Shown in pieces: positions 1 through 64,000 of a stretch of DNA of 64,000 nt. Position 1 is the stretch's first letter. The number at the start of each line of letters is the position of its first letter. The notes below the pieces were generated by a model that was not told where the DNA came from, ran no database searches, and saw only the letters and a program-made list of their open reading frames with translations. The position numbers were made by a program, and so were the translations under genes. Source of the stretch: a bacterium (lineage in GTDB: Bacteria > Myxococcota_A > Bradymonadia > UBA7976 > UBA1532); contig JAUHYW010000040.1 of assembly GCA_030426085.1 (NCBI GenBank), positions 1 to 64,000 on the forward strand, in the 5' to 3' direction.

Positions 1-11150
<11,150 letters not shown>

Positions 11151-21109: not shown

Positions 21110-24100
21110 TCAGCGGCGGCGGCGCAGGCCGATCAAGCCCACGATCGCCAGCAGCCCCCACAGCAGGCCGGCCGGCGAGTCATCGCCTGCGTCGCAGGCG
21201 CACCCGCTGCCGGTGAAGTCGTCCAGCGTCGGCCCCACGTCGGCCTCGGGCGGGCCGTAGTCCGGGCTGTAGACCGGGTCGATGTCCCCGCTGATGCGGA
21301 TGACATAGCGCTGGGTCGTCTGGCCCCCGTCGGGCACCCACGCCTCGTCGATCTTGTGGCCATCGGTGGCCCGCAACTCGACGATGACATCCCCGGTGGC
21401 GTCGGGCGGCACGTCCCAGTCGAGGGTGAACCGGCCGTCGTCGTACTCGGTGAGCAGCATGCCTTCGGGCGCGTCCATCAGCTCGAGGCGGATGATGTCG
21501 GTCTCACCGGCGTCGATGACTTCGATGGCATAGGTGTACGGCCGGCCGGCGGTGGCCAGCTCGGGGGGCTCGGTGACGAAGCTCGGCGGGCTGTTGGCGA
21601 TCGAGACGGCCACCTTGGCCCCCAGCGGCGCCTCGGGCGGGCCGCCCCACACCCGGGCGAGGTACGAGCCGTCGTCGGCGTAGCGGTGGCTCACGTCGCG
21701 CCCGGTGGCCTGGGTCCCGTCGCCGAAGTCCCAGGTCCACAGGTCCTGCTCGGGCGGCTCGGCCCCGGCGCAGCCCTGATCGTCGGGCCCGATGACCAGG
21801 CTCTCCTCGCCGACCGCGAAGCCGACGCACTGACCCTCGATGCCCTGAACCGACGCATCGGCGATGCCCGGGCGGTCGACCCACTGCTCGATCTCGAAGT
21901 CGTGCTCGAACGGGGTCACGGTGCCCGACCACGGGTCGCGCACGTCGATGGTCATCGTGTGCCCGCCGCCGACGTCGTAGACGTGCTGGGCGATGCCTTC
22001 CGCGAGCCACCCGGTATCATGGGTGCCATCGCCGTCGAAGTCGAAGGCATACATCAGCTCGGCGCTGTCGGGGTCGCGGGCCGTGGCCCGGGCGAGCACG
22101 TCCCCCGCGCCGCCGTCCTGCACCGCCATCTCGAGCATCGTGGTCGGCAGGTCGACGATGGGCGCGGTGAACGGCATCTCGGCGGTCAGGCCGCTGTCGT
22201 CGGTGACCTGCACCACGCCGGCGTAGGGCACCTCGTCGGGGTCGTAGGCGTAGCGGTGCTCGCCGACCAGGTTCGGCAGCGGGCTCCAGGCCGGCTCTTC
22301 GCCCTCGGCGACCTCTTCGTCGCCCCACCGGATGCGCCCCGAGAGCGGGCCGCCCTCGGGGTCGACCGCGTCCACGGCGACCGAGGTCTGCCCCCCGGGG
22401 CCGATCTCGACGAAGACCTCTTCGATGCGCGGCGGCAGCCGGAAGGGGTTGTCCCCGTCCTGGCCCACGGTGATCTCGTCCTCGATGCGGGCCCCCGACC
22501 AGGGATCGGTGACCGCGACCCGGGCGGTGTACTGGCCCGGCGGCTCGTAGATCCACACGCTCTCGCTGTTCTCGGCGTCGAGCACCTCCCAGGCGCCGTC
22601 GCTCTGGAAGTCGTAGGCGTAGGTCAGGGTGTCCGGGCTGTCGGGGTCGTCGGCGACGATGTCGAAGAACCACGTCCCGGCCCGCAGCTCGCGGGCGGTG
22701 ATCTCGCGGATGACCGTCGGGCTGTCGACCACCGCCGCCGCGAAGTCGGCCTGCGCTTCGAGGCCCTCGTCGTCGGCGACGGTCACCCGGCCGGCGTAGG
22801 GCTCCTCGGCGAACGGGTAGACATGGCTGCCCCGGCCGCCGGGCAGCCGCAGCAGCTCGCCGCCGGCGTCGCCCCAGTCGACGAAGTGGGTCAGCGGGCC
22901 GCCCTCGGGATCGACCGCCTCGATGACCAGCTCGGCCCGGCCGCGGGGGCCCATCTCGAGGGTCACCCCCCGGATGACCGGGGGCCGGTTCTCCGCGGGC
23001 GCCACGTACTCGACGCTGGCCTGGGCCTCGGCGGTGCCGCCCCGCCCGTCGTCGACGGTCACGGCCACGGTGTAGCGCTGGTAGACGTCGGCCGGGTAGC
23101 GGTGGGCCGCCAGCCCGCTGCGGTTGACGGTGTCGGCGGCGGCGTCGCCCCAGTCGAAGGTGTAGGTCAGCCCGTCGCCGTCGGGGTCGACCGCGCCGAC
23201 GACCGCCAGCACCTCGAAGCCCTCCTGGCGCACCAGGCGCAGCTCCTCGATGACCGGCGGGCGGTTCTGGTCGGGCGCGACGAACTCGACGACGAGCTCC
23301 TCGGTGGCCGCGCCGCCCCGGCCGTCCTCGACGGTGACCGCGACGGTGTAGGCCGCGAACATGCCATCGGGGAAGGCGTGGGGCGCGATGCCTCCGGCGT
23401 TGCGGGTCACCGGGCTGCCGTCGCCCCAGTCGAAGGTGTAGGTCAAGGGGTCGCCGTCGGGGTCGACCGCGCTGGCGGCGAGGGTGGCCTCGAAGCCATC
23501 GCGCGACAGCTCGCGGACCAGTTCGAAGGCCGGCGGGCGGTTCTGGTCGGGCGCGACGAACGTCACCTCGACCTCGGCGCTGGCCTCGCCGCCCCGGCCG
23601 TCGCGGGCGCTGACGGTGACCGGCCAGGTGCGGTACTCGCCCTCGGGGAAGCGGTGCGCGGCGAGCCCGGCCCGGTTCTCGGTGGGCGGGCTGTCGTCGG
23701 CCCAGTCGAAGGTGTAGGTGATGGGATCCCCGTCGGGGTCGACCGCGCTGGCGGTCAGCGTGGCTTCGAAGCCGTCGACCGAGAGCACCCGGGCGACCTC
23801 GATGACCGGCGGGCGGTTCTGGTCGGGCGGCGGGAAGTCGATCTCGACGTCGGTCGCGACCGCGCCGCCGCGGCCGTCGTCGGCGGTGACGGTGACGGTG
23901 TAGGCCCGGTAGTCGCCGGGCGGGTAGGCGTGCTCGGCGAGCCCGGCCCGGTTGGTGGTCGGCGGGCTGCCGTCGCCCCAGTCGAAGGTGTAGGTGACCG
24001 GGTCGCCGTTGGGGTCGACCGCGGTGGCGGTGACCACGACCCCGAAGCCGTCCCGGGACAGCTCGCGGGCGACCTCGAAGAACGGCGGCACGTTCTCGGC

Positions 24101-27100
24101 CGGCGGCGGGAAGTCGACGGTGACCTCGGCGGTGTCCGATCCGCCCTGGCCGTCGTCGGCGGTGATCACGACGGTGTACGGCCGGAAGACGTTGGCCGGG
24201 TAGACGTGGGCCGCCACCCCGCCGGCGTTGGTGGTCGACGGGCCGTCGTCCCCCCACTCGAAGGTGTAGGTCAGGTCGTCGCCGTCGGGATCGGCGGCGG
24301 TGGCGGTCAGCACCGCTTCGAAGCCGTCGACGCCCAGCACCCGGGCGACCTCGATGACCGGCGGGCGGTTGGCGGCGGGGGCCGGGAAGTCGACGTCGAT
24401 CTGCGCCTCGGCGGTGCCGCCCCGGCCGTCGTCGGCGGTGACGGTGACGGTGTAGGTCTCGAAGGCGCCCCGGGGGAAGCCGTGCACCGCGAGGCCGCCG
24501 ACGCTGACCCCCGGCGCGTCGCCGTCGCCCCACTCGAAGGTGTAGACCAGCGCGCCGCCGTCGGGGTCGACGGCGGTGGCCGAGACGACGACCTCGAAGC
24601 CGTCGCGCCCGATCTCGCGCAGGCTCTCGATGACCGGCGGGCGGTTGGCGGCGGGGGCCGGGAAGTCGACGTCGATCTCGGCGGTGTCCTGCCCGCCGCG
24701 GCCGTCGTCCACGGTCACCGTGATGGTGTAGGCCCGGAACTGGCCGGCCGGGTAGACGTGATCGGCCAGGCCGCCCGCGTTCTGGCTCGGCGGGCTGTCG
24801 TCGCCCCAGTCGAAGGTGTAGGTCAGCAGGTCGCCGTCGGGGTCGACGGCGGTGGCCGACGCGACGAGTTCGAAGCCGCTGCGCCCGATCTCGCGGGCGA
24901 CCTCGATGCGCGGCGGGCGGTTGGCGGCGGGGGCCGGGAAGTCGACCTCGACGTCGGCCTGCGCGGTGCCGCCCCGGCCGTCGTCGGCGGTGACGGTGAC
25001 GGTGTAGGCCCGGAACTGCCCCGCGGGGTAGAGGTGCACGCCCACGCCGCCGGCGTTGGTCATCGCCGGGGCGCCGTCGCCCCAGGTGAAGGTGTAGGTC
25101 AGCGGGTCGCCGTCGGGATCGGTGGCGCTGGCCGAGATGACGACCTCGAAGCCGGTGCGCCCGATCTCCCGGGCGAAGTCGATGGCCGGCGGCCGGTTCT
25201 GGGCCGGGGCGGGGAAGTCGACCCGGAGGGTGCGCTGGGCGCTGCCCCCGCGGCCGTCGGTCACCGTGACCGTGACGTCGTAGGCCCGGAAGTCGCCCGC
25301 GGGGAAGTCGTGCACCCCGACGCCGCCCGGCGAGCCGGCCGGCTGGGAGCCGTCGCCCCAGTCGATGGTGTAGGTCAGCGGGTCGCCGTCGGGGTCGACC
25401 GCGCTGGCGGCGATGGCCACCCGGAAGCCGTCCCGGCTGATCTCGTCGAGCCGGGCGATGACCGGATCCTCGTTGGCCGCGGGCCGGGGGAAGTCGATCT
25501 CCAGCGTGCGCCGGGCCTCGCCGCCGCGGCCGTCGCGGGCGATGGCGGTGACCTCGTAGCTCTGGAACTGCCCCTCGGGGTAGGCGTGGGTCGCCACCCC
25601 GCCGGCGTTGGCCGACTGGCTGCCGTCGCCCCACTCGAAGGTGTAGGTCAGCGAGTCGCCGTCGGGGTCGATTCCGCTGGCCGACACGACGACCTCGAAG
25701 CCGTCGCGGCCGATCTGCACGAGCTGGTCGATGACCGGCGGGCGGTTCTCGGCGGGGGCCTCGAACTCGACCCGCAGCGCCTCCTGGGCGGCGCCGCCCC
25801 GGCCGTCGTCGGCGGTGACGGCGACGTCGTAGCCCCGGAACGCGCCGTCGGCGAAGCGGTGCACCGCGACCCCGCCCGCGTTGCGGGTGGCCGGCGAGCC
25901 GTCGCCCCAGTCGAAGGTGTAGGCCACCGGATCGCCGTCGGGATCGGCCGCGCTGGCGGCGACGGTCACCGCGAAGCCGTCGCGGCTGATCTCCACGAAC
26001 TGGTCGACGACCGGCGGGCGGTTCTCGGGCGGGGCCTCGAAGCCGACGTCGAAGGTGTCGCTGGCGCTGCCGCCCCGATCGTCGGTGACCGTGACGGTGA
26101 CCGCGTACGCCCGGAACTGCCCGTCGGGGAACCGGTGGGCCGCGATGCCGCCCCGGTTGACGGTGTCCGGGCTGCCGTCGGCCCAGGCGAAGCGGTAGGT
26201 CAGCGGGTCGCCGTCGGGGTCGCTCGCCTCGGCGGCCAGGGTCACGTTGAAGTCGACGCGGCTGATCTCGAGGATGGCGTCGATGCTCGGCGGGCGGTTC
26301 TCGGCGGGGGCTTCGAACTCGACCTGCACGACCCGCTGATCGCGGCCGCCGCGGCCGTCGTCGGCGGTGATGGTGACGTCGTAGACCCCGAACGCGCCCT
26401 CGGGGAAGACGTGCGCCGCCACGCCGCCCTGGTTGGTGGTCGGCGGGCTGCCGTCGGCCCAGTCGAAGGTGTAGGTGAGCACGTCGCCGTCGGGATCGGC
26501 GGCGCTGGCGGCGATGACGACCTCGAAGCCGTCCTGATCGAGCACCCGGGTGAACTCGAAGCGCGGCGCCTGGTTCTCCGGCGGCTCGGGGAAGTCGACC
26601 GCGAGCTGGCGCTGCGCGGTGCCGCCCCGGCCGTCGTCGGCGGTGATCGTGACGGTGTAGGCCCGGTAGACGCCGTCGGGGTAGGCGTGCTGGCTGATGC
26701 CGCCCTGGGTCACGGTCGGCGGGCTGCCGTCGCCCCAGTCGACGGTGTAGGTCAGGCCGTCGCCGTCGGGATCGACCGCGCTGGCGCTGACGACCACGTC
26801 GAAGTCGTTCTGCCCGACGACGCTGGCCTGCTCGAAGACGGGCGGGCGGTTGTCGAGCTGCACGACCTGGTCGAACAGCGCCGGATCGCCGCCCGACCCC
26901 CGGACCATGCCCGCGATGCGCACCGCGTCGGTGCCCGGCGGCACCTGGAACTCGACCTGGTTCGCCCCGCCGCCGGCCACCTCGTAGCGGCCGTCGGCAC
27001 CCACGTCGAAGAAGTAGCGCAGGGTCGGATCGGCGAACGGCGCCCGCAGATCGCGGGCGGCCGAGACCGTGTCGTCGCCGTCGCTGAGGCGCACCGTCGC

Positions 27101-30013
27101 CCGGTGCTCGGCGTTGGCCGCGACGACCTGGGGGCCGACGGTGCCCCGGTTGCCGGGCACCGGGGCGGTGAAGCCGCCGTCGCCGTTGATGTCGGCCGCG
27201 CCGGTCACCGGCTCGCCGTGCGGGTCGTGCCCCTGGTACTCGAGCCACGCGTCGTAGCGGGTGTCGGGCACCGCGTCGATCGAGGCCCGGTAGCGGCCGT
27301 TGCCCAGGTTGACCACCGAGACGCCGCCCTGGATGGTCGGGCCCCGGCCGGTGTACTGCACCGCCCAGAAGTCGATGATCGGGGGCACGTTGGCCACCGC
27401 GATCTCGATGTCGGCCTCCGAGCGCAGGTCGCCGTAGTCGGTCACCGTGGCCCGGATGACATCGGTCCGGGCGCCGTCCGGATCGGGGGTGTAGATCGGC
27501 CGCGGGCCCCAGTCGCCGTTGCCGCCGGGGTAGCCGGGGGTCGGCAGCAGGGTGCCGTCGCCCTCGATCAGCTCATAGCGATAGGTCATGCCCAGCACGC
27601 CCTCGGGATCGCGGGTGCCGGTGAGATCGAGCGGGGTCTCTTCGCCGGGCTGCGCGCTGTAGGGCCCGCCGGGGTCGATGGCCGGCGGTTCGAGGTTCTC
27701 GACGACGATGACCGAGGCGGTGCCGAAGGCGCACTCCGAGCAGTCGGCCCGGGTGACCCCGTCGTAGCACTCGCCGTTCCACTGCCCGTCGTCGCAGGCC
27801 CGGATGGGGACCGCGATGCGGTCGCCGGCGGCCTGCCCCGGGCGGGGCACGAAGGTCACCGGGCCCAGGGCGCCGTCTTCGCCGGCGTCGTCGAAGTCGC
27901 CGTCGAGGTTGAGGTCGAAGTGCAGCGAGGTGATGCGATCGGGCACGCCCTCGGGGCGGTTGGCGTCGCCGGGGAAGACCGCGTGCTCGGTGTCGACGTC
28001 GTAGGTCGACCGGCCGTCGAGCAGGATCGGGGTGCCCAGGTAGCCGCCGTAGACCGCGTCGCCGCCGTCGGGGTGCCCCACGATGACCGGGACGTGGTTG
28101 CGCAGCGACAGCTCGATCTCGACGTTGGCGTCGTCGGTGACGGTGCGCCCCTCGCTGTCGGTGACCTCGAGCACGACGTTGCGGGTGACGACCTCGCCCC
28201 AGTCGAGGTCGTCGTCGTACTGGAAGACGAGCGGGTCGTTCAGGTCGTCGGTCTCGTGCTCCCAGACGATCTCGTCGTGATCGACGCGCCCGTCGCCGTT
28301 CACGTCGTCTTCGGGGCGATCGATGACATTCCACCGATAGCGCACGATGTGCACGCTGGGATCGAGCACATGGCTCCAGGCGTGGTCGAAGGTGATGTCG
28401 ATGCCCGGCCCGGCGGCCAGCGGGGTGGCCCGGGCCCAGGCCTGGGTCTCGAGCCAGGTCTGGATGATCTGCACCGTCAGGGCGGTGCGCGAGTCCTGGT
28501 TGATGTTGCCCGCCCAGTCCCAGTGGCCGACCCAGTTCCACGAGCCGTTCGCCTGCTGGTGCGGCAGCAGGAACTGGTTGTTCATCGCCGACCAGTCGGT
28601 GCCGTTGGGCAGGTAGGTGATCTCGGGCACGAACGAGCGCAGGCCCTTGGTCATGGCATAGATGTAATACAACCCCCAGAAGCCCTGCCCGGGGCGGATG
28701 CTCTCCAGCGCGCGGACGTGCGCCAGGTGGTTGCCCGCGCCGGAGTAGACCTGGTCGTCGACCCAGCCATAACCCACCAAGGCGTTGCCCGAGAGCTTGT
28801 AGCCCCCGTGGTGGTAGGAACAGTCCCCGTTGGGGCAGTGATTGCCGAGCCACACCCGCTGCTGGTTCTTGGCGTCCTGATAGGTCTCGAGGCCCATCTT
28901 GCGCTCGAGCAGGCGCAGCGACTCGGGGGCCCAGCCGTTGGTCGACGCGTCGGTGGTCGTCCAGTTGCCATTGTCACAGCCATAGTGCCACCCGCCATCA
29001 CTTCGCGAACACTGGATGAGACCGTCGGCCAGATCCTGGCCCAGGCTGCGCAAGGTGCGCCCGCGGATGGCGGCCTGACCGACGGGGGAGACATAGTCCG
29101 GCTCGCCGAAGCTGGCCAATGGCTCGACCCACGCCGTGGAGGCATAGGACGGGAAGTAGCTCTGCCCGCCCAGCACGCCGTTGGTGTAGGTGATGTAGCG
29201 GTCGTGCACGCCTTCCTCGGCGGTGTCGTCGAACCGAGGCGCGCCGCCCGACATGGCATAGGTCGAGATGAGCGCGTGCAGGCCGCATTGGGTGACATGG
29301 CGATAGTAGACGTCGCTGTCCCGCCCCGGCCCGTGGCCATGGCCCCGCCGCAGGAAGGCGTTGATGGCGTGCCCGTGCCCGTACATGTTCGGCGTGCCGG
29401 GGTAGGTGCAGACGTGCACGTTGTTGCCGTGGCTGTCGTCGCCCCGGTGCGAGAAGCGGGTGAACATGTACCACAGCCCGCGATCGACGGCCCGGTTGGC
29501 GTGCACCGTGCGGGTCACCCCCAGGCTCTGGTCACCGGCGCAGTTCTCGTCGTTGGGGTAGTTGGGGCACAGCCGGTCGACGGTCACCTTGACCGGCATC
29601 GTCGCCGAGACCGTCTCGGCCCCGCAGCGGACCTCGACCTTGGGGAAGAACAGCCGGTCGCCCTGGGCATCGGGGAGCTGCACGTCGAGCCCGAGCGCGG
29701 CGAACCAGCCGTTCGAGTTGGCGTTGCGGAGCTGCTCGTTGGCGTCGTCGTAGTCCTGGTCGCCGTTGATGTCCCACCGATACTGGTAGGCCCCGCCGCA
29801 GTCGCCGCCCTCGGCGATCGCTTGCAGCATCGTCGGCCGGCCGTTGAGCGCCGGGTGGGGGATCTCGGATCGGCCCTGGACCCAGTCGACCACGCTGACC
29901 CGGAGCTGGGCTGCGGCGATCCCCGGGATCAGGACGCCGCCGATCAGCGCGAGGGCGGCCAGGAGGTGGGTCGGGAGGCCGGGCGCAGGCCGTGTGTCGC
30001 TTCGTACATCCAT
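21110..30013 (-). CDS. Giant secreted PKD-repeat protein with toroid domain and MYXO-CTERM-like tail
   Basis: The protein is 2967 residues. A signal peptide lies at residues ~15-36 (AALALIGGVLIPGIAAAQ). Residues ~140-535 are Trp/Gly/His-rich helical hairpins (DGGWHYGC, QANGSWNWVGHWDW) resembling prenyltransferase/squalene-cyclase alpha-toroid proteins. Ig/PKD-like modules follow, including IDPGGPYSAQPG at ~780. About 14 close tandem repeats then cover residues ~1055-2345 (consensus DGFEVVVSASAVDPDGDPLTYTFDWGDGSPP, split here as SASAVDPDGDPLTYTFDW and GDGS). More diverged modules end in CACDAGDDSP, a hydrophobic helix and RRRR, the pattern of MYXO-CTERM tails processed for surface display. A GGAGG-type ribosome-binding site precedes the ATG. 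It is probably an outer-surface or extracellular protein; its enzymatic role is unknown. Confidence 0.88.
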   Translation of the reverse strand: MDVRSDTRPAPGLPTHLLAALALIGGVLIPGIAAAQLRVSVVDWVQGRSEIPHPALNGRPTMLQAIAEGGDCGGAYQYRWDINGDQDYDDANEQLRNANSNGWFAALGLDVQLPDAQGDRLFFPKVEVRCGAETVSATMPVKVTVDRLCPNYPNDENCAGDQSLGVTRTVHANRAVDRGLWYMFTRFSHRGDDSHGNNVHVCTYPGTPNMYGHGHAINAFLRRGHGHGPGRDSDVYYRHVTQCGLHALISTYAMSGGAPRFDDTAEEGVHDRYITYTNGVLGGQSYFPSYASTAWVEPLASFGEPDYVSPVGQAAIRGRTLRSLGQDLADGLIQCSRSDGGWHYGCDNGNWTTTDASTNGWAPESLRLLERKMGLETYQDAKNQQRVWLGNHCPNGDCSYHHGGYKLSGNALVGYGWVDDQVYSGAGNHLAHVRALESIRPGQGFWGLYYIYAMTKGLRSFVPEITYLPNGTDWSAMNNQFLLPHQQANGSWNWVGHWDWAGNINQDSRTALTVQIIQTWLETQAWARATPLAAGPGIDITFDHAWSHVLDPSVHIVRYRWNVIDRPEDDVNGDGRVDHDEIVWEHETDDLNDPLVFQYDDDLDWGEVVTRNVVLEVTDSEGRTVTDDANVEIELSLRNHVPVIVGHPDGGDAVYGGYLGTPILLDGRSTYDVDTEHAVFPGDANRPEGVPDRITSLHFDLNLDGDFDDAGEDGALGPVTFVPRPGQAAGDRIAVPIRACDDGQWNGECYDGVTRADCSECAFGTASVIVVENLEPPAIDPGGPYSAQPGEETPLDLTGTRDPEGVLGMTYRYELIEGDGTLLPTPGYPGGNGDWGPRPIYTPDPDGARTDVIRATVTDYGDLRSEADIEIAVANVPPIIDFWAVQYTGRGPTIQGGVSVVNLGNGRYRASIDAVPDTRYDAWLEYQGHDPHGEPVTGAADINGDGGFTAPVPGNRGTVGPQVVAANAEHRATVRLSDGDDTVSAARDLRAPFADPTLRYFFDVGADGRYEVAGGGANQVEFQVPPGTDAVRIAGMVRGSGGDPALFDQVVQLDNRPPVFEQASVVGQNDFDVVVSASAVDPDGDGLTYTVDWGDGSPPTVTQGGISQHAYPDGVYRAYTVTITADDGRGGTAQRQLAVDFPEPPENQAPRFEFTRVLDQDGFEVVIAASAADPDGDVLTYTFDWADGSPPTTNQGGVAAHVFPEGAFGVYDVTITADDGRGGRDQRVVQVEFEAPAENRPPSIDAILEISRVDFNVTLAAEASDPDGDPLTYRFAWADGSPDTVNRGGIAAHRFPDGQFRAYAVTVTVTDDRGGSASDTFDVGFEAPPENRPPVVDQFVEISRDGFAVTVAASAADPDGDPVAYTFDWGDGSPATRNAGGVAVHRFADGAFRGYDVAVTADDGRGGAAQEALRVEFEAPAENRPPVIDQLVQIGRDGFEVVVSASGIDPDGDSLTYTFEWGDGSQSANAGGVATHAYPEGQFQSYEVTAIARDGRGGEARRTLEIDFPRPAANEDPVIARLDEISRDGFRVAIAASAVDPDGDPLTYTIDWGDGSQPAGSPGGVGVHDFPAGDFRAYDVTVTVTDGRGGSAQRTLRVDFPAPAQNRPPAIDFAREIGRTGFEVVISASATDPDGDPLTYTFTWGDGAPAMTNAGGVGVHLYPAGQFRAYTVTVTADDGRGGTAQADVEVDFPAPAANRPPRIEVAREIGRSGFELVASATAVDPDGDLLTYTFDWGDDSPPSQNAGGLADHVYPAGQFRAYTITVTVDDGRGGQDTAEIDVDFPAPAANRPPVIESLREIGRDGFEVVVSATAVDPDGGALVYTFEWGDGDAPGVSVGGLAVHGFPRGAFETYTVTVTADDGRGGTAEAQIDVDFPAPAANRPPVIEVARVLGVDGFEAVLTATAADPDGDDLTYTFEWGDDGPSTTNAGGVAAHVYPANVFRPYTVVITADDGQGGSDTAEVTVDFPPPAENVPPFFEVARELSRDGFGVVVTATAVDPNGDPVTYTFDWGDGSPPTTNRAGLAEHAYPPGDYRAYTVTVTADDGRGGAVATDVEIDFPPPDQNRPPVIEVARVLSVDGFEATLTASAVDPDGDPITYTFDWADDSPPTENRAGLAAHRFPEGEYRTWPVTVSARDGRGGEASAEVEVTFVAPDQNRPPAFELVRELSRDGFEATLAASAVDPDGDPLTYTFDWGDGSPVTRNAGGIAPHAFPDGMFAAYTVAVTVEDGRGGAATEELVVEFVAPDQNRPPVIEELRLVRQEGFEVLAVVGAVDPDGDGLTYTFDWGDAAADTVNRSGLAAHRYPADVYQRYTVAVTVDDGRGGTAEAQASVEYVAPAENRPPVIRGVTLEMGPRGRAELVIEAVDPEGGPLTHFVDWGDAGGELLRLPGGRGSHVYPFAEEPYAGRVTVADDEGLEAQADFAAAVVDSPTVIREITARELRAGTWFFDIVADDPDSPDTLTYAYDFQSDGAWEVLDAENSESVWIYEPPGQYTARVAVTDPWSGARIEDEITVGQDGDNPFRLPPRIEEVFVEIGPGGQTSVAVDAVDPEGGPLSGRIRWGDEEVAEGEEPAWSPLPNLVGEHRYAYDPDEVPYAGVVQVTDDSGLTAEMPFTAPIVDLPTTMLEMAVQDGGAGDVLARATARDPDSAELMYAFDFDGDGTHDTGWLAEGIAQHVYDVGGGHTMTIDVRDPWSGTVTPFEHDFEIEQWVDRPGIADASVQGIEGQCVGFAVGEESLVIGPDDQGCAGAEPPEQDLWTWDFGDGTQATGRDVSHRYADDGSYLARVWGGPPEAPLGAKVAVSIANSPPSFVTEPPELATAGRPYTYAIEVIDAGETDIIRLELMDAPEGMLLTEYDDGRFTLDWDVPPDATGDVIVELRATDGHKIDEAWVPDGGQTTQRYVIRISGDIDPVYSPDYGPPEADVGPTLDDFTGSGCACDAGDDSPAGLLWGLLAIVGLIGLRRRR
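22980..26850 (-). repeat. About 14 tandem PKD-like coding repeats, ~275 bp each
   Basis: A recurrent DNA word (gaccggcgggcggttc and close variants) appears about every 275 bases between ~22980 and ~26850, giving units of about 92 residues. Each unit begins NRPPVIE-like, contains DPDGDPLTYTFDWGDGSP, a G-G-V-A-x-H turn and V-T-V-T-A-D-D-G-R-G-G, and ends VDFPAPAE-like. The units are similar enough to indicate recent duplication or gene conversion. Confidence 0.85.
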
Positions 30014-53904: not shown

Positions 53905-55527
53905 TCAGCCGCCCGGTGCAGGGGGCACCGGCACCGCCTCGACCCGGCCGTCGGTGAGCCGGATGATCCGATCGGCGAGGTGGAAGTAACGCGCGTCGTG
54001 GCTGACCGCGATGACCGCCTTGCCCTGGGCCCGCAGCTCCGCGAGCAGCACCTCGTAGTAGTCCCGTCGCAGCTCGGGATCCTGGTGGGCGGCCCACTCG
54101 TCGAGCACGAAGACCGGGCGATCCTCGAGCATCGCGACGATCATCGCCAGCCGCCGGGCCTGCCCGCTCGACAGCTCGAGGTGGGTGAACGCGTCCCCGT
54201 CGAGATCGGTGACGCCGTGCAGGGCGAACCGCTCGAGGAGCCCATCGACCCGCGCCTGATCCGAGACGTCGAGCCCGTAGGCCCGCTCGAAGAGCACATG
54301 CCGGGCGAAGACGACGGTGAACAGGCTGCGATAGCGATCCAGCCCCACCGCCTGGACCGGCACGCCGTCCAGGCGGACGAGCCCCGCGTCCGGCGGATAC
54401 AGGCCGCAGAGCAGCTTGACCAGGGTCGTTTTGCCGCTGCCGTTTCCGCCCACCACGAACACCAGCTCGCCGGGTCGCAGCGTCAGGTCGACCGGCCCCA
54501 CCCGGAAGTCGGCCTCGGTGTCATAGCCGAACTCGACCCGCTGCAGCTCGATGGATTCGAACGTCCGCAGGGGTTCGCGCGAGCTCTCGGCGTCGGGCTC
54601 GGGCGCCAGCCGATCCCGCCACCCCACGAGGTTGCGCCACGCCGACTCGGCCCCGATGACCCGCTGACCGGCGTTGACCAGATCGACCAGCGGCCCTTCG
54701 GCGAAGAGCACGATCGCCGCCAGGGACAGGATGAGATCGAGCGTGAAGTCCCCTTGGCTGGCGAGGGTGAAGACGACCGCGCCCAGCGCGGCCTGCATGA
54801 CGAAGGTGATCTTGACGTCGGCGTCGCGGTGGGCGTCGTCCCGCCGCTGGCGCTCGACCATCATCCGCTCGGTGAGGGCGTCGAAGTCGGCCGCGAGGTC
54901 GTCGCCGACCGCCCGGTCGAGCTTGAGCTGCGCCGCGCCGGCCAGCATGCGATCGGTCAGCAGGCTCACCTCGGCGAAGACCTCGTCGAAGTCCCCGGCG
55001 GCCTCGAACGACTCGGCGATCTCGTCGCGCAGGATCCAGCCGGCGAAGGCGCAGATACCGACCCAGCAGACGAAGGCCGTCAGCGAGGTGTAGAGCAGGT
55101 ACAGGCTCAGCCCGGCGATCACCGCGCCGTTGAAGACGAGCCCGCCGATCATGCGGGGCAGGTTGGCCAGCGTCTCGACGTCCCGGGTGAACGCCTCGGC
55201 GATCTCGTCGTAGCGCTCGACCGATCGCAGCGAGGTGCCCCGCAGGCGGGTGAGCAGCGCGTTCTGGAACTCGATCAACCGCTCTTCGAGCATCACCACC
55301 GCCCGGGTGCTCGCGGTGCGGCGCAGCGCGAGGCCGCCGACGAGGGCCAGCCCGAAGACGACGACCACCGCCCAGTAGGCCGCCGTCGTGGCCGGCAGCC
55401 GGGCGCCCCAGGTCACCAGCGGGACCAGCACCGCCTCGAGGCCACCGGCCAGCGCCGAGAGCAGCAACACCGGGATCACCCGCCGCCGCGCCTCGCGGTC
55501 GAAGAGATCGAAGACGGACAGCCTCAT
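53905..55527 (-). CDS. ABC half-transporter, cyclic-peptide exporter type (second of pair)
   Basis: The 540-residue protein has six TM segments in an N-terminal exporter domain (VIPVLLLSALAGGLEAVLVPL and onward) without a C39 peptidase. The nucleotide-binding domain at ~340-540 carries Walker A GGNGSGKTTL (~362), signature LSSGQARRLAM and Walker B VFVLDEWAAHQDP, plus VSHDARYFHLADR. The DEWAA(H/D)QDP word is characteristic of the SyrD/PvdE/YojI family (cyclic-peptide transporters). It overlaps the previous half-transporter gene by 4 bases (ATGA). The two are probably a heterodimer that exports the product of the upstream JmjC genes. It is the last gene of the operon. Confidence 0.87.
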   Translation of the reverse strand: MRLSVFDLFDREARRRVIPVLLLSALAGGLEAVLVPLVTWGARLPATTAAYWAVVVVFGLALVGGLALRRTASTRAVVMLEERLIEFQNALLTRLRGTSLRSVERYDEIAEAFTRDVETLANLPRMIGGLVFNGAVIAGLSLYLLYTSLTAFVCWVGICAFAGWILRDEIAESFEAAGDFDEVFAEVSLLTDRMLAGAAQLKLDRAVGDDLAADFDALTERMMVERQRRDDAHRDADVKITFVMQAALGAVVFTLASQGDFTLDLILSLAAIVLFAEGPLVDLVNAGQRVIGAESAWRNLVGWRDRLAPEPDAESSREPLRTFESIELQRVEFGYDTEADFRVGPVDLTLRPGELVFVVGGNGSGKTTLVKLLCGLYPPDAGLVRLDGVPVQAVGLDRYRSLFTVVFARHVLFERAYGLDVSDQARVDGLLERFALHGVTDLDGDAFTHLELSSGQARRLAMIVAMLEDRPVFVLDEWAAHQDPELRRDYYEVLLAELRAQGKAVIAVSHDARYFHLADRIIRLTDGRVEAVPVPPAPGG

Positions 55528-57170
55528 GTGATCCGCCCGTCGGCGAGGTGCAGCCGGCGGTCGGCGGCGTCGAAGTACGCGTCGTCGTGGGTGACGGCGA
55601 TGATCGCCTTGCCCCGGGCGGCCAGCGCCGGCAGCAGCCGGCGATAGAAGCGCTCGCGAAAGCGGGGGTCCTGGTCGGCGGCCCACTCGTCGAAGACCAG
55701 GATCGGCCGGTCGCGCAGCAGGGTGACGACCATCGCCAGCCGCTTGCGCTGGCCCGTCGACAGCTCCACGGTGCTGAACGCGCCGTCGGCGTATCCCACG
55801 ACGTGGTCCAGCTCCATCTCGGCGAGCAGCGCCCGGACCCGGGCCGGCTCGACCCCGCCCAGGCCGTAGCCCCTCTCGAAGAGCGTGAAGTCGGCGAAGA
55901 TCGCGCCGAACAGATCACGCGCCGTCGCCGGAGGCAACGCCGGCATCGGGCGCCCGTTGATCCGCAGCTCGCCGTCGGTGCGGGCGTACAGGCCGGTCAG
56001 GACCTCGAGCAGCGTGGACTTGCCGCTGCCATTGCTGCCCGTGACGAACACCACCTCGCCCGGCCGCAGCGTCAGATCGATGGGCCCGATCGCGAAGCCG
56101 GGGCGCCCTGGCGTATCCGGATAGGCGAAGCGGACCCCGCGCAGCTCGAGCTGCTCGAATCGACCGAAGCCCTCGCCCGACGCATCGGGGGGCTCGCCCG
56201 GCGCGTCCGCCAGCGTCGCGATGAGGCGGTCCATCCGGGCCAGCGCGGCGCCCCCACGAGCCGCCTCGAGCTGGTCGATGATGACGTGGGCCACCGGATC
56301 GAAGACGAACAGGGCGGCGAGCACGAGCCGATCCGCCTCGGCGCTCGCCTCCGGGACGATGTGGGTGTAGCCCAGCGCGAGCGCGCCGATCAGGCAGAAG
56401 AGCAGCCCCTGGGTGACCGCCTCGGTGGTGTTGAACGCGCGATACATCAACTCGCCGCGCCCGAGGTGGGCGGCGGTGTCCGCGGCGTAGGCCGCGCCGA
56501 GCGCCTCGCTGCGCGGCCGGTGCACCTTGACCTGGGCGAACCCGTCGATGACCGACTCGACGACCCCGAACAGCGTCTCCCGGTTGTCTTCGAAGTCCCG
56601 CGCCAGCGCCTCGGCCTGGCTGCCCAGCACGCTGATCGGGATCGCCGACAGCGCCGCGAGCAGCACGAAGAGCGTGACCGATCGGGTGTCGCCGAACAGC
56701 CCGTAGGCGATGGTCAGCGCCGTGACGAGCGTCTCGGAGAGCAGCAGGACGATGATGGGCCCCGCCTCGACCACCCGGGCGGCGTCGCTGGTCAGGCGGG
56801 CCCGGACCGTGGACTGGCCGATCGCTTCGAGCTGACTCAGGCTCGTGCGGCGCAGCTCGGCGACGATGTGGCGCTGCCGGGACGCGACCGCCCGGGTGAA
56901 GGCCCGCGACGCCTTGGTGCGGGCCCAGGTCTCGGCGCCGAGGGTGCACAGCATGCCCAGGGCGAAGAGCGCCGCGAAGCGGGCGGCCGACTCCCCGGCG
57001 CGATAGGCCTCCATCGCGCCGCTGATCGCGATCAGGACCGACACCTGCCCGCAGGCGAGCAGCACGACGTCGGCGATGACCGGCCAGCGCCCGATCCGGG
57101 GATCGGAGAGCAGGACCCCGACCAGACCCCGGAAGTGGGCGAAGGTCTGCCTGTCCGGCAGCCGGTTCAC
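55524..57170 (-). CDS. ABC half-transporter, cyclic-peptide exporter type (first of pair)
   Basis: The 548-residue protein starts at a GTG at 57170. It has an N-terminal TM domain (ADVVLLACGQVSVLIAISG, six helices) and a C-terminal nucleotide-binding domain with Walker A GSNGSGKSTL (~380), signature LSTGQRKRLAM and Walker B ILVFDEWAADQDP, then TVTHDDAYFDAADR-like sequence (VTHDDAYFDAADRR). No leader peptidase domain is present. It is a close structural relative of the next gene and of SyrD/PvdE/YojI exporters. It follows the fifth JmjC gene by 21 bases, in the same operon. Confidence 0.87.
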   Translation of the reverse strand: MNRLPDRQTFAHFRGLVGVLLSDPRIGRWPVIADVVLLACGQVSVLIAISGAMEAYRAGESAARFAALFALGMLCTLGAETWARTKASRAFTRAVASRQRHIVAELRRTSLSQLEAIGQSTVRARLTSDAARVVEAGPIIVLLLSETLVTALTIAYGLFGDTRSVTLFVLLAALSAIPISVLGSQAEALARDFEDNRETLFGVVESVIDGFAQVKVHRPRSEALGAAYAADTAAHLGRGELMYRAFNTTEAVTQGLLFCLIGALALGYTHIVPEASAEADRLVLAALFVFDPVAHVIIDQLEAARGGAALARMDRLIATLADAPGEPPDASGEGFGRFEQLELRGVRFAYPDTPGRPGFAIGPIDLTLRPGEVVFVTGSNGSGKSTLLEVLTGLYARTDGELRINGRPMPALPPATARDLFGAIFADFTLFERGYGLGGVEPARVRALLAEMELDHVVGYADGAFSTVELSTGQRKRLAMVVTLLRDRPILVFDEWAADQDPRFRERFYRRLLPALAARGKAIIAVTHDDAYFDAADRRLHLADGRIT

Positions 57171-57191: not shown

Positions 57192-58211
57192 TCAGTAAGC
57201 GGCATGGCCCCGCAGGATGTCGACGAGGCTCTCCTCGACCAGCCGCTCGAAGATGACGTGGGGGTAATACGAGCGCCCGTGCTCGGCGACATAGTCCCGG
57301 TGGAACGCCTTGAGCCGGCGGTTGCGGCGCCCGGGGCGCTCGTCGGCGCGCACGATCTCGAGCAGCGCGTCCCGGGTGGCGTCATCGACGGGCAGAGCGC
57401 CGGCCTCGACCAGCCGACCGGTGACCCGCACCCGCTGGGCCATCGTCTCGTTGATGATGTGCGAGACGGCGATGTTCCGGCCGTACGAGGTGACATGATG
57501 CCACCAATAACACGGCACATAGAGCATGTCGCCCGCTTCGATGCGCGCCACGTAGGGGGTCGCGTCGGCGAGGCGGGGGAACGCATCCGGATCGGGGCGG
57601 GCGAGGTCGACGTCCGAGCGGAAGTCGCCCGGTCGGGCGTACATCGCCGGCAGATCGCAGACGTCGAACAGCAGGAAGGTCTTGCTGCCCGCGATCTGGC
57701 ACATCAGGTTCTCGTTGTCGTCGTAGTGCAGCGTCGAGACCTGCCCGTCCTGCCCCCACCACAGCGTATGCCGCCGCAGCACGGGGAAGACCGCCGACAG
57801 GCCGTGATCGCCGATGTCGGGGTACAGCGGCGGGGGCAGGTTGAGGTCGTGCACGTAGTGATGGGCGTCGGGGGTGTCGGCGAAGCGCTCGACGAGCTCG
57901 GCGGCGGTCATCGAGATCTGCTCGGTCGCGTCGAGCAGCAGCCGCCCCTCGGCGTCGTGGGGCACCACGTCCACCCGCAGCGGCATCGCGCCCAGCGTCT
58001 CGCGCAGGCGGGCGTCGGTCCACTGCATCGCGGGCCATTCGGCGGCGGCGCCCCGGACGATCAGCGGGCGGTGACGCTCGACGTACTCGGCCCGGAAGCG
58101 GTCCGGGTCGATGCGCTCCACCTCGTCGACCGGCAGGGGAGGGGGCAGCGGGAACCGCGCTGCATCCGGTGTCGACTCAGTCGATGAAGGCATGGCGCAC
58201 CGCTCTGGCAT
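57192..58211 (-). CDS. JmjC/cupin_8-type Fe(II)/2-oxoglutarate oxygenase (E)
   Basis: The 339-residue protein has a single JmjC-like cupin. The facial triad is present as LHYDDNEN (His ~161, Asp ~163) and YWWHHV (His ~237). The Lys that contacts 2-oxoglutarate is likely the one in AGSKTFLLF. The N-terminal RFRAEYVERHRPLIVRGAAAEWPA is the standard opening of cupin_8 proteins such as FIH- and ycfD-like hydroxylases. The family hydroxylates (less often demethylates) protein or peptide side chains. The ATG at 58211 overlaps the previous stop as TGATG; the ATG at 58193 is an alternative. Pairwise similarity with the gene before it is high, so the two look like duplicates. Confidence 0.88.
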   Translation of the reverse strand: MPERCAMPSSTESTPDAARFPLPPPLPVDEVERIDPDRFRAEYVERHRPLIVRGAAAEWPAMQWTDARLRETLGAMPLRVDVVPHDAEGRLLLDATEQISMTAAELVERFADTPDAHHYVHDLNLPPPLYPDIGDHGLSAVFPVLRRHTLWWGQDGQVSTLHYDDNENLMCQIAGSKTFLLFDVCDLPAMYARPGDFRSDVDLARPDPDAFPRLADATPYVARIEAGDMLYVPCYWWHHVTSYGRNIAVSHIINETMAQRVRVTGRLVEAGALPVDDATRDALLEIVRADERPGRRNRRLKAFHRDYVAEHGRSYYPHVIFERLVEESLVDILRGHAAY

Positions 58212-59179
58212 CAGTGATACGCCGTGCGGCGGATGATGTGACTCTGGGGCGTGTCGATCAATCGCTCGGCGATGGCATGTCGGTAATATGAGCGACCCTG
58301 CGCCCGGCGGTACTGCGCGTGATGGCGCCGCAGCCGCTTGAGCTGGATGAGCGGGGGCGCATCGGCGCACAGGATCGCGCGCAGCGCCTCGATCTCTCCG
58401 GCGGCGTCGGGGGTCGTGAGCGCGCCGGCGTCGAGCAGGCGCCGGGCGACCCGGATCCGCTGGGCCCGGCTCTCGGTGATCAGGCACGACACCGCGAGGT
58501 TGCGGCCGTATGACCAGACCTGATGCCACCAGTAGCACGGCACGTAGAGCACGTCCCCCGGCCCGATACGGGCCAGGTAGGGGGTCGCCCGGCTCAGCAG
58601 GCCGTGACGGTCGGCGTCGAGGCGATCGAGATCGGCCGTCGACGTGTCTCCCGGCTCATCGGGCTGGGGATAGACGTGCTCGATGTCGGTGATGTCGAAC
58701 AGCACGAACTCTTTGTACCCGGCGCACTGGTACATCAGGTTCTCGTTGTCGTCGAGGTGCAGGCTCGACCGCTGGCCGTCCCGCCCCCACCACAGCGTCA
58801 TCTCGCCCGGGGGCAGGCACGCGCTCCAGCCCGGCGTCGGCAGATCGGGGCGCAGCCGGGCCGGCAGGGGCTGGTTGAGGATGTAGGGGTAGCGCCCGGC
58901 GTCGTCGAGGGCTTCGATGAAGCGATCGACGTCCATCTCGACGCTGCGCGCCCGATGCAGATCGGGCCGGCCGTCCGCGCCCGGCGGCATGACATCGACG
59001 GTGAACCGCAGCCCGCGCAGGCGCTCGGCGAGCGCGGCGTCGCTCCATGCCATCGCCGGGGTGCCTCTCATCGCGCCCCGCACGATCACGGGCCGATGGG
59101 CCTCGACGTAGTCCGCGCGGAAGGCATCGGCGCTGATCGCCTCGACTTCGTCCACCGGCTCGGGGGGTGGCAGGATCAC
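58211..59179 (-). CDS. JmjC/cupin_8-type Fe(II)/2-oxoglutarate oxygenase (D)
   Basis: The 322-residue protein has the complete triad as LHLDDNEN (~138-140) and YWWHQV (~217), plus CAGYKEFVLF for the cosubstrate Lys. The C-terminus ends YYRHAIAERLIDTPQSHI, matching YYPHVIFERLVEESLVDI in the next gene, so these two genes share the C-terminal domain as well. The start overlaps the double-domain oxygenase gene by 4 bases (ATGA). The sequence gives no indication of substrate. Conservation of the full metal and cosubstrate set suggests an active enzyme. Confidence 0.88.
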   Translation of the reverse strand: MILPPPEPVDEVEAISADAFRADYVEAHRPVIVRGAMRGTPAMAWSDAALAERLRGLRFTVDVMPPGADGRPDLHRARSVEMDVDRFIEALDDAGRYPYILNQPLPARLRPDLPTPGWSACLPPGEMTLWWGRDGQRSSLHLDDNENLMYQCAGYKEFVLFDITDIEHVYPQPDEPGDTSTADLDRLDADRHGLLSRATPYLARIGPGDVLYVPCYWWHQVWSYGRNLAVSCLITESRAQRIRVARRLLDAGALTTPDAAGEIEALRAILCADAPPLIQLKRLRRHHAQYRRAQGRSYYRHAIAERLIDTPQSHIIRRTAYH

Positions 59180-63027: not shown

Positions 63028-63393
63028 TCAGCTACGGCGGCGGCGGCGGGTGTACGCGGCAGCGCCCATGCCCTCGAGATCGGCTTCGGGCACGAAGGTG
63101 GGCAGCTCGATCTCCTGCTTGTGCCCGTACTTGAGCTCGACGTAGTTGGGGTTGCTCTTGAGCATGGGCACGGCGACGTAGGTCACGCCGTTGATGGACA
63201 GCTCGCTGCGGTAGATGCTGTCGCCCGCCGGGCCCTCTTCGGGGCCGGCGACCTCCGCCTCGGCGCTCGAGACCGCGTCGCTGTCGAGCTCGTTGTCGAG
63301 GTACTCGGGGTACTGCAAGAGGAAGTCGACCGAGACGTAGAGGACGCCGTCGATCTCGATCTCACTGCCGAAAGGCTTCGCGTTCGGGCTCAT
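63028..63393 (-). CDS. Small acidic protein with internal duplication, candidate substrate (precursor) of the operon
   Basis: The 121-residue protein has no signal peptide and no Cys. Two similar segments are visible: SEIEIDGVLYVSVDFLLQYP (from residue ~10) and SELSINGVTYVAVPMLKSNP (~64), joined by an Asp/Glu/Ala-rich linker. Each repeat also ends P-x-Y. The C-terminus ends YTRRRRRS after EGMGAAA. I recognise no known family. An AGGAG ribosome-binding site at 63402-63406 sets the ATG at 63393. It is the first gene of the JmjC/ABC operon, 25 bases before oxygenase A, which makes it the prime candidate for the modified and exported peptide. It could instead be a small accessory or scaffold protein. 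Confidence 0.7.
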   Translation of the reverse strand: MSPNAKPFGSEIEIDGVLYVSVDFLLQYPEYLDNELDSDAVSSAEAEVAGPEEGPAGDSIYRSELSINGVTYVAVPMLKSNPNYVELKYGHKQEIELPTFVPEADLEGMGAAAYTRRRRRS

Positions 63394-63454
63394 CGTCGCT
63401 GCTCCTGGACCGTTTTGCGCGTCGCGCCGCGCCGTCGCCGAACACCGTGCTCGG

Positions 63455-63574: not shown

Positions 63575-64000
63575 ATGCGCCCGATGCCCCCGCTGTCCCC
63601 CATGCCCGAAGCGATGCCCGAGCTGTACGCCCGGCTCGTCGACGCGCGCGCCGAGTGTGCTCCGACCGCCTTCGCACGCAGCGTGCTCGCGGTCCTGAAC
63701 GCTGTGATCGCCCACGACTTCGCCGTGCCCGAGGCGTTCTTCGGCGCCCGCCTCGCCCGGCCGACGGCGTCCGGAGACACCCTGTACGACGTGCTCGCCG
63801 GCTGGGGATACCCCGACTTCACCCGCTGGGTCGAGGCGTCCCGCCGCACGACGCTGGCCCACATCGGCCCCCCGGATGCCCCCCGGATCTGGCGCCTGCC
63901 GGTGTATGTGCACTTCGTCCGCGAGGCCGCCGGGCAGTGCTTCGTCGGGCCGAAGGCCGATGACGACCTGCTCGACGACCTCGACCGCTTCGACGCCGGG
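63575..64000 (+). CDS. Hypothetical protein, 3' partial
   Basis: The frame from the ATG at 63575 is open to the right edge (142 codons). GGAG at 63566-63569 is a suitable ribosome-binding site. The sequence reads MRPMPPLSPMPEAMPELYAR, then AFARSVLAVLNAVIAHDFAV, LYDVLAGWGYPDFTRWVEAS, and VYVHFVREAAGQCFVGPKAD before leaving the window. No signal peptide or familiar motif is visible. It is divergent from the JmjC/ABC operon, so it might be a regulatory or accessory partner, but nothing in the sequence supports a specific function. Confidence 0.6.
   Translation, partial: MRPMPPLSPMPEAMPELYARLVDARAECAPTAFARSVLAVLNAVIAHDFAVPEAFFGARLARPTASGDTLYDVLAGWGYPDFTRWVEASRRTTLAHIGPPDAPRIWRLPVYVHFVREAAGQCFVGPKADDDLLDDLDRFDAG

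Follow-up and report, generated by a model that had tools for sequence, protein, structure and literature searches.

A candidate RiPP precursor with a duplicated leader module and an oligo-arginine tail, encoded beside five JmjC genes

The window, a stretch of 64,000 nucleotides of bacterial DNA, carries near its end an operon whose first gene encodes a small protein of 121 residues. We propose, with a probability of about 0.6, that this protein serves as a RiPP precursor, in which a leader made of a duplicated module precedes an oligo-arginine core that would be hydroxylated by JmjC enzymes, released by a protease and exported. Two copies of a beta-hairpin/helix module in the acidic leader would dock the JmjC enzymes. 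Six JmjC domains would then hydroxylate the C-terminal core YTRRRRRS, most likely at arginine. A pappalysin-like metalloprotease would cut in front of the basic run and free a short cationic peptide, which the ABC exporters of the operon would carry out. We infer the tail as the product, arginine as the oxidised residue, the cleavage point, the export and the biological role from the comparisons described below. A broader proposal is more tentative, and we give it somewhat less than even odds: the genes would represent a new class of RiPP found in two phyla or more, with a team of JmjC enzymes that docks on a doubled leader and oxidises consecutive arginines, perhaps one residue per domain, and a pappalysin that cuts before Arg and frees a hydroxy-oligoarginine.

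The translated ORF reads MSPNAKPFGSEIEIDGVLYVSVDFLLQYPEYLDNELDSDAVSSAEAEVAGPEEGPAGDSIYRSELSINGVTYVAVPMLKSNPNYVELKYGHKQEIELPTFVPEADLEGMGAAAYTRRRRRS. It is taken as a real gene because of its GC content by codon position (0.64/0.40/0.94), because an AGGAG lies 8 bases before the ATG and because a gene 57-58% identical to it is found in another phylum. The first ca 113 residues are acidic (net charge -16) and the proposed core is basic. Five of the six arginines of the protein lie in a single terminal run; RRRRR within the last 10 residues was obtained in 0 of 200,000 shuffles. The tail named in the original prediction is thus present, preceded by GMGAAA, the Gly/Ala turn that it had described. 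Pfam and NCBIfam gave no family for the protein and no curated leader family matched. No known folded domain was found in Pfam, NCBIfam, PDB, PHROGs (matches only at E>0.1) or PADLOC (nothing). The structure prediction is weak (mean pLDDT 49.8).

Table 1 Features of the precursor operon and of the divergent gene (window positions)
Feature	Position	Strand	Basis
Pappalysin-like (metzincin) protease, gene start	63575..64000	+	full gene L031:3575-4939; HELGHLFQLHH, Met-turn; ulilysin profile match 6e-5
Shine-Dalgarno-like AGGAG	63402..63406	-	upstream sequence; 8 bases 5' of the precursor ATG
Candidate precursor, 121 aa + stop, first gene of the operon	63028..63393	-	ORF; codon-position GC; homologues in 3 cyanobacterial loci
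Putative leader module 1, FGSEIEIDGVLYVSVDFLLQYPEYLDNELD	63283..63372	-	26/30 identical to L033; hairpin + helix in low-confidence model
Putative leader module 2, RSELSINGVTYVAVPMLKSNPNYVELKYG	63124..63210	-	22/29 identical to L033; significance of the internal repeat
Proposed core YTRRRRRS	63031..63054	-	Arg run in 5/5 precursors; neighbouring residues vary
JmjC/Cupin_8 A, 381 aa	61857..63002	-	PF13621 9e-39; best match Moorena gene 1, 46%; nearest solved JMJD5, 1e-24
JmjC/Cupin_8 B, 321 aa	60879..61844	-	Pfam Cupin_8; best match Moorena gene 3, 41%; nearest solved JMJD5
JmjC/Cupin_8 C, two JmjC domains, 568 aa	59176..60882	-	Pfam Cupin_8; best match Moorena gene 4, 52%; nearest solved JMJD5
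JmjC/Cupin_8 D, 322 aa, paralogue of E	58211..59179	-	Pfam Cupin_8; best match Moorena gene 2, 42%; nearest solved FIH
JmjC/Cupin_8 E, ATG at 58193	57192..58193	-	Pfam Cupin_8; best match Moorena gene 2, 51%; nearest solved JMJD5
ABC exporter 1, cyclic-peptide exporter (PvdE/SyrD) type	55524..57170	-	TIGR01194 1.6e-77, 261 bits, under cut-off 286
ABC exporter 2, YojI (PRK10522)/cyclic-peptide type	53905..55527	-	NF007813 1e-77, under cut-off; 4-base overlap with exporter 1

The protein contains an internal repeat. As predicted, the pattern SE[IL]xI[DN]GVxYV[SA]Vxx[LM] matches two segments, each followed by a P-x-Y. Local BLOSUM62 alignment of the two halves of the protein gives a score of 58 over 26 aligned residues, which none of 5000 shuffles of the halves reaches (mean 21.4, sd 4.1, max 46). 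In the low-confidence structure prediction, both modules are modelled as beta-hairpins with IDG and ING turns.

An alignment-based search with three of the JmjC proteins identified two Moorena contigs with a matching gene set (L032 and L033). L032 has two copies of the precursor gene and L033 has one; JmjC genes 1-4 and a homologue of the divergent gene follow. A precursor profile search retrieved one further genome of the same family (G775, locus L041), giving 3 loci and 4 precursor copies in Moorena-type cyanobacteria. The cyanobacterial sets comprise one or two precursors, then orthologues of JmjC A, D/E, B and the double C, plus the protease. Orthology between window and Moorena was assigned by best match, with the identities given in Table 1. 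The JmjC set accompanies the precursor in 4/4 loci. Two phyla are involved, since the genomes drawn for the second phylum, that of genome G377, exclude the sample of the window's own phylum. The family is seen in four genomes only and the cyanobacterial carriers are close relatives, so that the comparison is effectively one of two lineages. In L032, the tandem precursor copies (2765-3157 and 3425-3814) are preceded by almost the same upstream sequence and end in different tails. A possible attenuator behind the Moorena precursor was considered: the sequence following the stop folds strongly for the L032 copies (z -3.7 and -2.8) and less so for L033 (-0.75), and no plus-strand terminator was found in the intergenic stretches.

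Among the sampled genomes of the window's own phylum, no close relative of the precursor was found. A single-sequence search matched 23 of 95 relatives at E<=1, one of them being the genome itself; the others (E 0.009 or worse, 27-56% partial identity) were taken as chance. With the family profile, 2 of 377 own-phylum genomes matched at E<=0.01, namely the genome itself and G188, whose match (0.003, inside a 763-aa frame) was judged to be chance. The same profile matched 3 of 386 genomes in the phylum of G377: G377 and two at 0.002-0.009 that cover at most 44 positions, both judged to be chance. It also matched 2 of 20 genomes in the family of G377 and 2 of 378 in the order to which G377 belongs; the two order matches had been found before. 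A contig scan with the window precursor covered 171 stretches and gave no relative; it is not exhaustive, as the patterns used do not match the Moorena copies. Searches of plasmid, phage, viral and PDB sequences with the precursor were empty. Clusters of at least three Cupin_8 genes were found nowhere else in the 377 own-phylum genomes, considering the best six matches per genome, nor in 292 genomes of the other phylum.

Comparison of the window protein with L033 reveals an uneven conservation. Identity reaches 87% in module 1 and 76% in module 2, as against 6/24 (25%) in the linker, 8/23 (35%) in the stretch before the tail and 5/8 in the tail. Invariant in all five precursors are the IDG and ING turns (including D15 and N68), YPEYLDNELD, LKSNPNYVELKY and an Arg run. 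The tails are YTRRRRRS in the window and TKFRVRRRRSL, AAFGRRRRSL, AASRRRRRL and AATRRRRTI in cyanobacteria. Thus, the C-terminal residues vary except for at least four consecutive arginines. For the fourth arginine of the run, two Moorena copies use the codon CGA, L041 uses CGC and L032a CGT; because the codon differs between copies, the run is kept as amino acid and not merely as a DNA repeat. Compared with one another, the Moorena leaders show 2-9 differences in 118 residues. In the single equal-length pair tested, L033 and L041, 4/122 leader residues differ versus 3/7 tail residues (Fisher p 0.003). A constant leader with a changing tail fits the behaviour of a RiPP leader and core; it also fits a tail in which the arginines are needed and their neighbours are free.

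The alignment of homologues bears directly on the original prediction, which had seen the small protein as a JmjC substrate with both the repeat Asn/Asp and the Arg tail as possible targets. That the protein is a substrate is probably correct. The outcomes named as refuting did not occur: repeat and tail are both conserved, and the database searches gave no known folded domain. The Arg tail as target gains support from its conservation in 5/5 precursors from two phyla. The idea that the repeat is a duplicated modification site has to be revised. The modules are the most conserved part of the protein and, on sequence comparison, fit a role in docking, as recognition elements of a leader, better than one as modification targets. 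What is retained of that idea is that Asp and Asn of the repeat are possible targets, D15 and N68 being invariant.

Downstream of the precursor gene and on the same strand lie the five JmjC/Cupin_8 genes A-E and then the two ABC exporters, with gaps of at most 25 bases and several 4-base overlaps. Since C has two JmjC domains, the five genes encode six. We compared 16 JmjC domains, 6 from the window and 10 from L032 and L041. The HxD...H iron triad and the 2-oxoglutarate-binding Lys are kept in all of them. In a tree of these domains, A, the N- and C-terminal domains of C and the D/E group each cluster with the corresponding cyanobacterial domains; B forms no clade with its best match. JMJD5, which is deposited as an arginyl-hydroxylase, is the closest solved relative for four of the five proteins (A, B, C and E). 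This likeness is a lead to Arg hydroxylation and not a test of the substrate. The number of JmjC domains does not match the tail arginines cleanly, with 6 domains for 5 Arg in the window and 5 for 4-5 in cyanobacteria. No PqqD-like RRE domain was matched by Pfam, in a sequence-level scan, in the eight operon proteins, and no MNIO, B12-radical SAM or arginase was found by Pfam among these or in the protease gene.

Other Cupin_8 genes of the same genome adjoin P-type-ATPase-like genes in L027 (C153) and L029 (C31), as confirmed by Pfam for L029:3943-6084 and by eye for L027. A further P-type-ATPase-like ORF, L031:11147-13225 (minus strand; E1-E2_ATPase 2e-8), has no DKTGT motif by eye and is possibly degenerate. 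L028:9557-12406 (C110, minus strand) contains three consecutive Cupin_8-matching domains.

FIH, the nearest solved relative of JmjC D, is an Asn/Asp-type enzyme. One could imagine that the JmjC enzymes act like FIH and hydroxylate the invariant Asp of the IDG turn and Asn of the ING turn, or leader residues elsewhere; the protein would then be a small folded one whose Arg tail serves only localisation, export or protease recognition. We regard this as unlikely, even though D15 and N68 are invariant and sit in the part of the protein that is most conserved. A tight hairpin turn needs DG or NG as well (the model itself being weak), further module residues are equally invariant, and the Arg run is conserved among variable neighbours.

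The strong conservation of the modules would also be expected if the protein were a scaffold or carrier, not itself a substrate, that binds JmjC enzymes acting on another molecule, with an Arg tail for binding nucleic acid, membrane or the enzymes. This too has a low probability in our estimate. The conserved set has no other candidate substrate gene, and the gene copies of L032, with their strongly different tails, fit a precursor better. The loci display features expected of a RiPP system, namely an encoded precursor with a conserved leader and a distinct core, as judged by comparison only, conserved adjacent modifying enzymes, and a protease and an exporter in the cluster. ABC exporters occur in all loci; their types differ between the phyla, with about 21-25% identity. 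YojI, one of the families that the exporters resemble below the curated cut-offs, exports microcin J25.

The protease gene diverges from the precursor operon on its upstream side. It has no Pfam or NCBIfam match, Pfam M43 not being passed. The match with the ulilysin profile spans the zinc motif and the Met-turn. The protein has HELGHLFQLHH and a NIM turn, so the three His are kept, with Gln at the Gly position of HExxHxxGxxH. The pappalysin S1' Asp is not at its aligned position, which by eye is occupied by Gln in the window protein and Glu in Moorena; acidic residues are nearby. A metzincin-like gene is present in 4/4 loci and lies beside the JmjC genes in 3/3 cyanobacterial loci, the window protein being 29% identical to its best Moorena match. 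One copy, L033:9075-10445, reads HDLGH where the other three read HELGH, which may reflect a strain difference, decay or a sequence error. The structure prediction of the protease is useless (mean pLDDT 27.9). According to excerpts of PMC6949598, pappalysins hold basic residues in S1' via a conserved Asp and cut before Lys/Arg. Excerpts of PMC9445424 describe ulilysin and mirolysin as likewise cutting before basic residues, and leptolysin, another pappalysin, as preferring Arg at P1.

A pappalysin-type cut before Arg would, by inference, also remove the tail if the N-terminal part of a RiPP-like precursor were the product and the Arg tail a C-terminal follower. This is improbable: the N-terminal part of the Moorena proteins is near-constant and the tail changes, the opposite of usual core and recognition behaviour. 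We reject, as the least probable reading, a tail that acts as a sorting signal like those at the C-terminus of PEP/MYXO-CTERM proteins: the genome does have Arg-ending sorting-like tails, as at the end, GLLAIVGLIGLRRRR, of the 2967-aa ORF at window positions 21110-30013 (minus strand), but the translated small protein has no hydrophobic stretch before its Arg run and no signal-like N-terminus.

Several observations weigh against the RiPP precursor that we favour. These are the nearness of JmjC D to FIH, the invariance of D15 and N68, the S1' Asp missing at its usual place, the protease's lack of a Pfam M43 match, the HDLGH of the L033 copy, the Arg-at-P1 preference described for leptolysin in the excerpts cited above, the unlike exporters of the two phyla, the RRE not seen in the operon and a comparison that amounts to two lineages.

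Most work on JmjC enzymes has taken them singly, with cellular proteins as substrates. Several JmjC genes beside one dedicated small substrate candidate would give a direct test of how such enzymes divide neighbouring residues. A hydroxylated oligo-Arg peptide would, if true, be chemically novel and might bind membranes, nucleic acids or metals, and genome mining could use the doubled leader as a new docking element.

In the open-licence literature, neither an all-JmjC cluster nor an oligo-Arg core was found among the matches listed, including papers with both JmjC and RiPP; where these papers describe a JmjC enzyme at work on a RiPP, it is a single one, as for biphenomycin. A passage of PMC12710340 notes JmjC homologues in RiPP-like contexts, with reference to JmjC (PF08007) proteins fused to an RRE. 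Unlike these RRE-associated proteins, the window operon has no RRE that we could find. Two systems offer a precedent for the proposed chemistry. According to PMC12707348 and PMC12257519, the JmjC enzyme BipG/BpmG hydroxylates Orn in the biphenomycin RiPP core. The window resembles such clusters (bip/bpm/pbs; BipG/BpmG/PbsQ) in combining a JmjC/cupin enzyme, a basic core residue and a ribosomal precursor, here predicted from genes. Biphenomycin-type clusters have MNIO, arginase, B12-radical SAM and one JmjC, whereas the window operon has five JmjC genes and an unrelated double-module leader, and those partners are absent from the seven enzyme and transport proteins scanned. The other precedent is PflC, which is reported in excerpts of PMC12636437 to hydroxylate a Gln run near the C-terminus. 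The pfl/pos RiPP clusters (PflC/PosC) thus share with our proposal 2-oxoglutarate enzymes and a run of consecutive identical residues, hydroxylation being proposed here; in the same excerpts they use HEXXH-type enzymes, a Gln run and an MNIO-nitroreductase, in contrast to JmjC and an Arg run in the window.

The protease is like the pappalysins (M43: ulilysin/lysargiNase, mirolysin) in its HExxHxxxxxH, its Met-turn and the FT..QA.R that follows. It differs from them by a Gln in place of the Asn of ulilysin and the Gly of the textbook motif, by the lack of a position-matched S1' Asp and by not passing Pfam M43. Among solved structures, JMJD5 and FIH come nearest to the five JmjC proteins and share HxD...H and Lys with them. 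JMJD5/FIH-type hydroxylases are known to act singly on cellular proteins; in the window, several JmjC genes adjoin one dedicated small substrate candidate.
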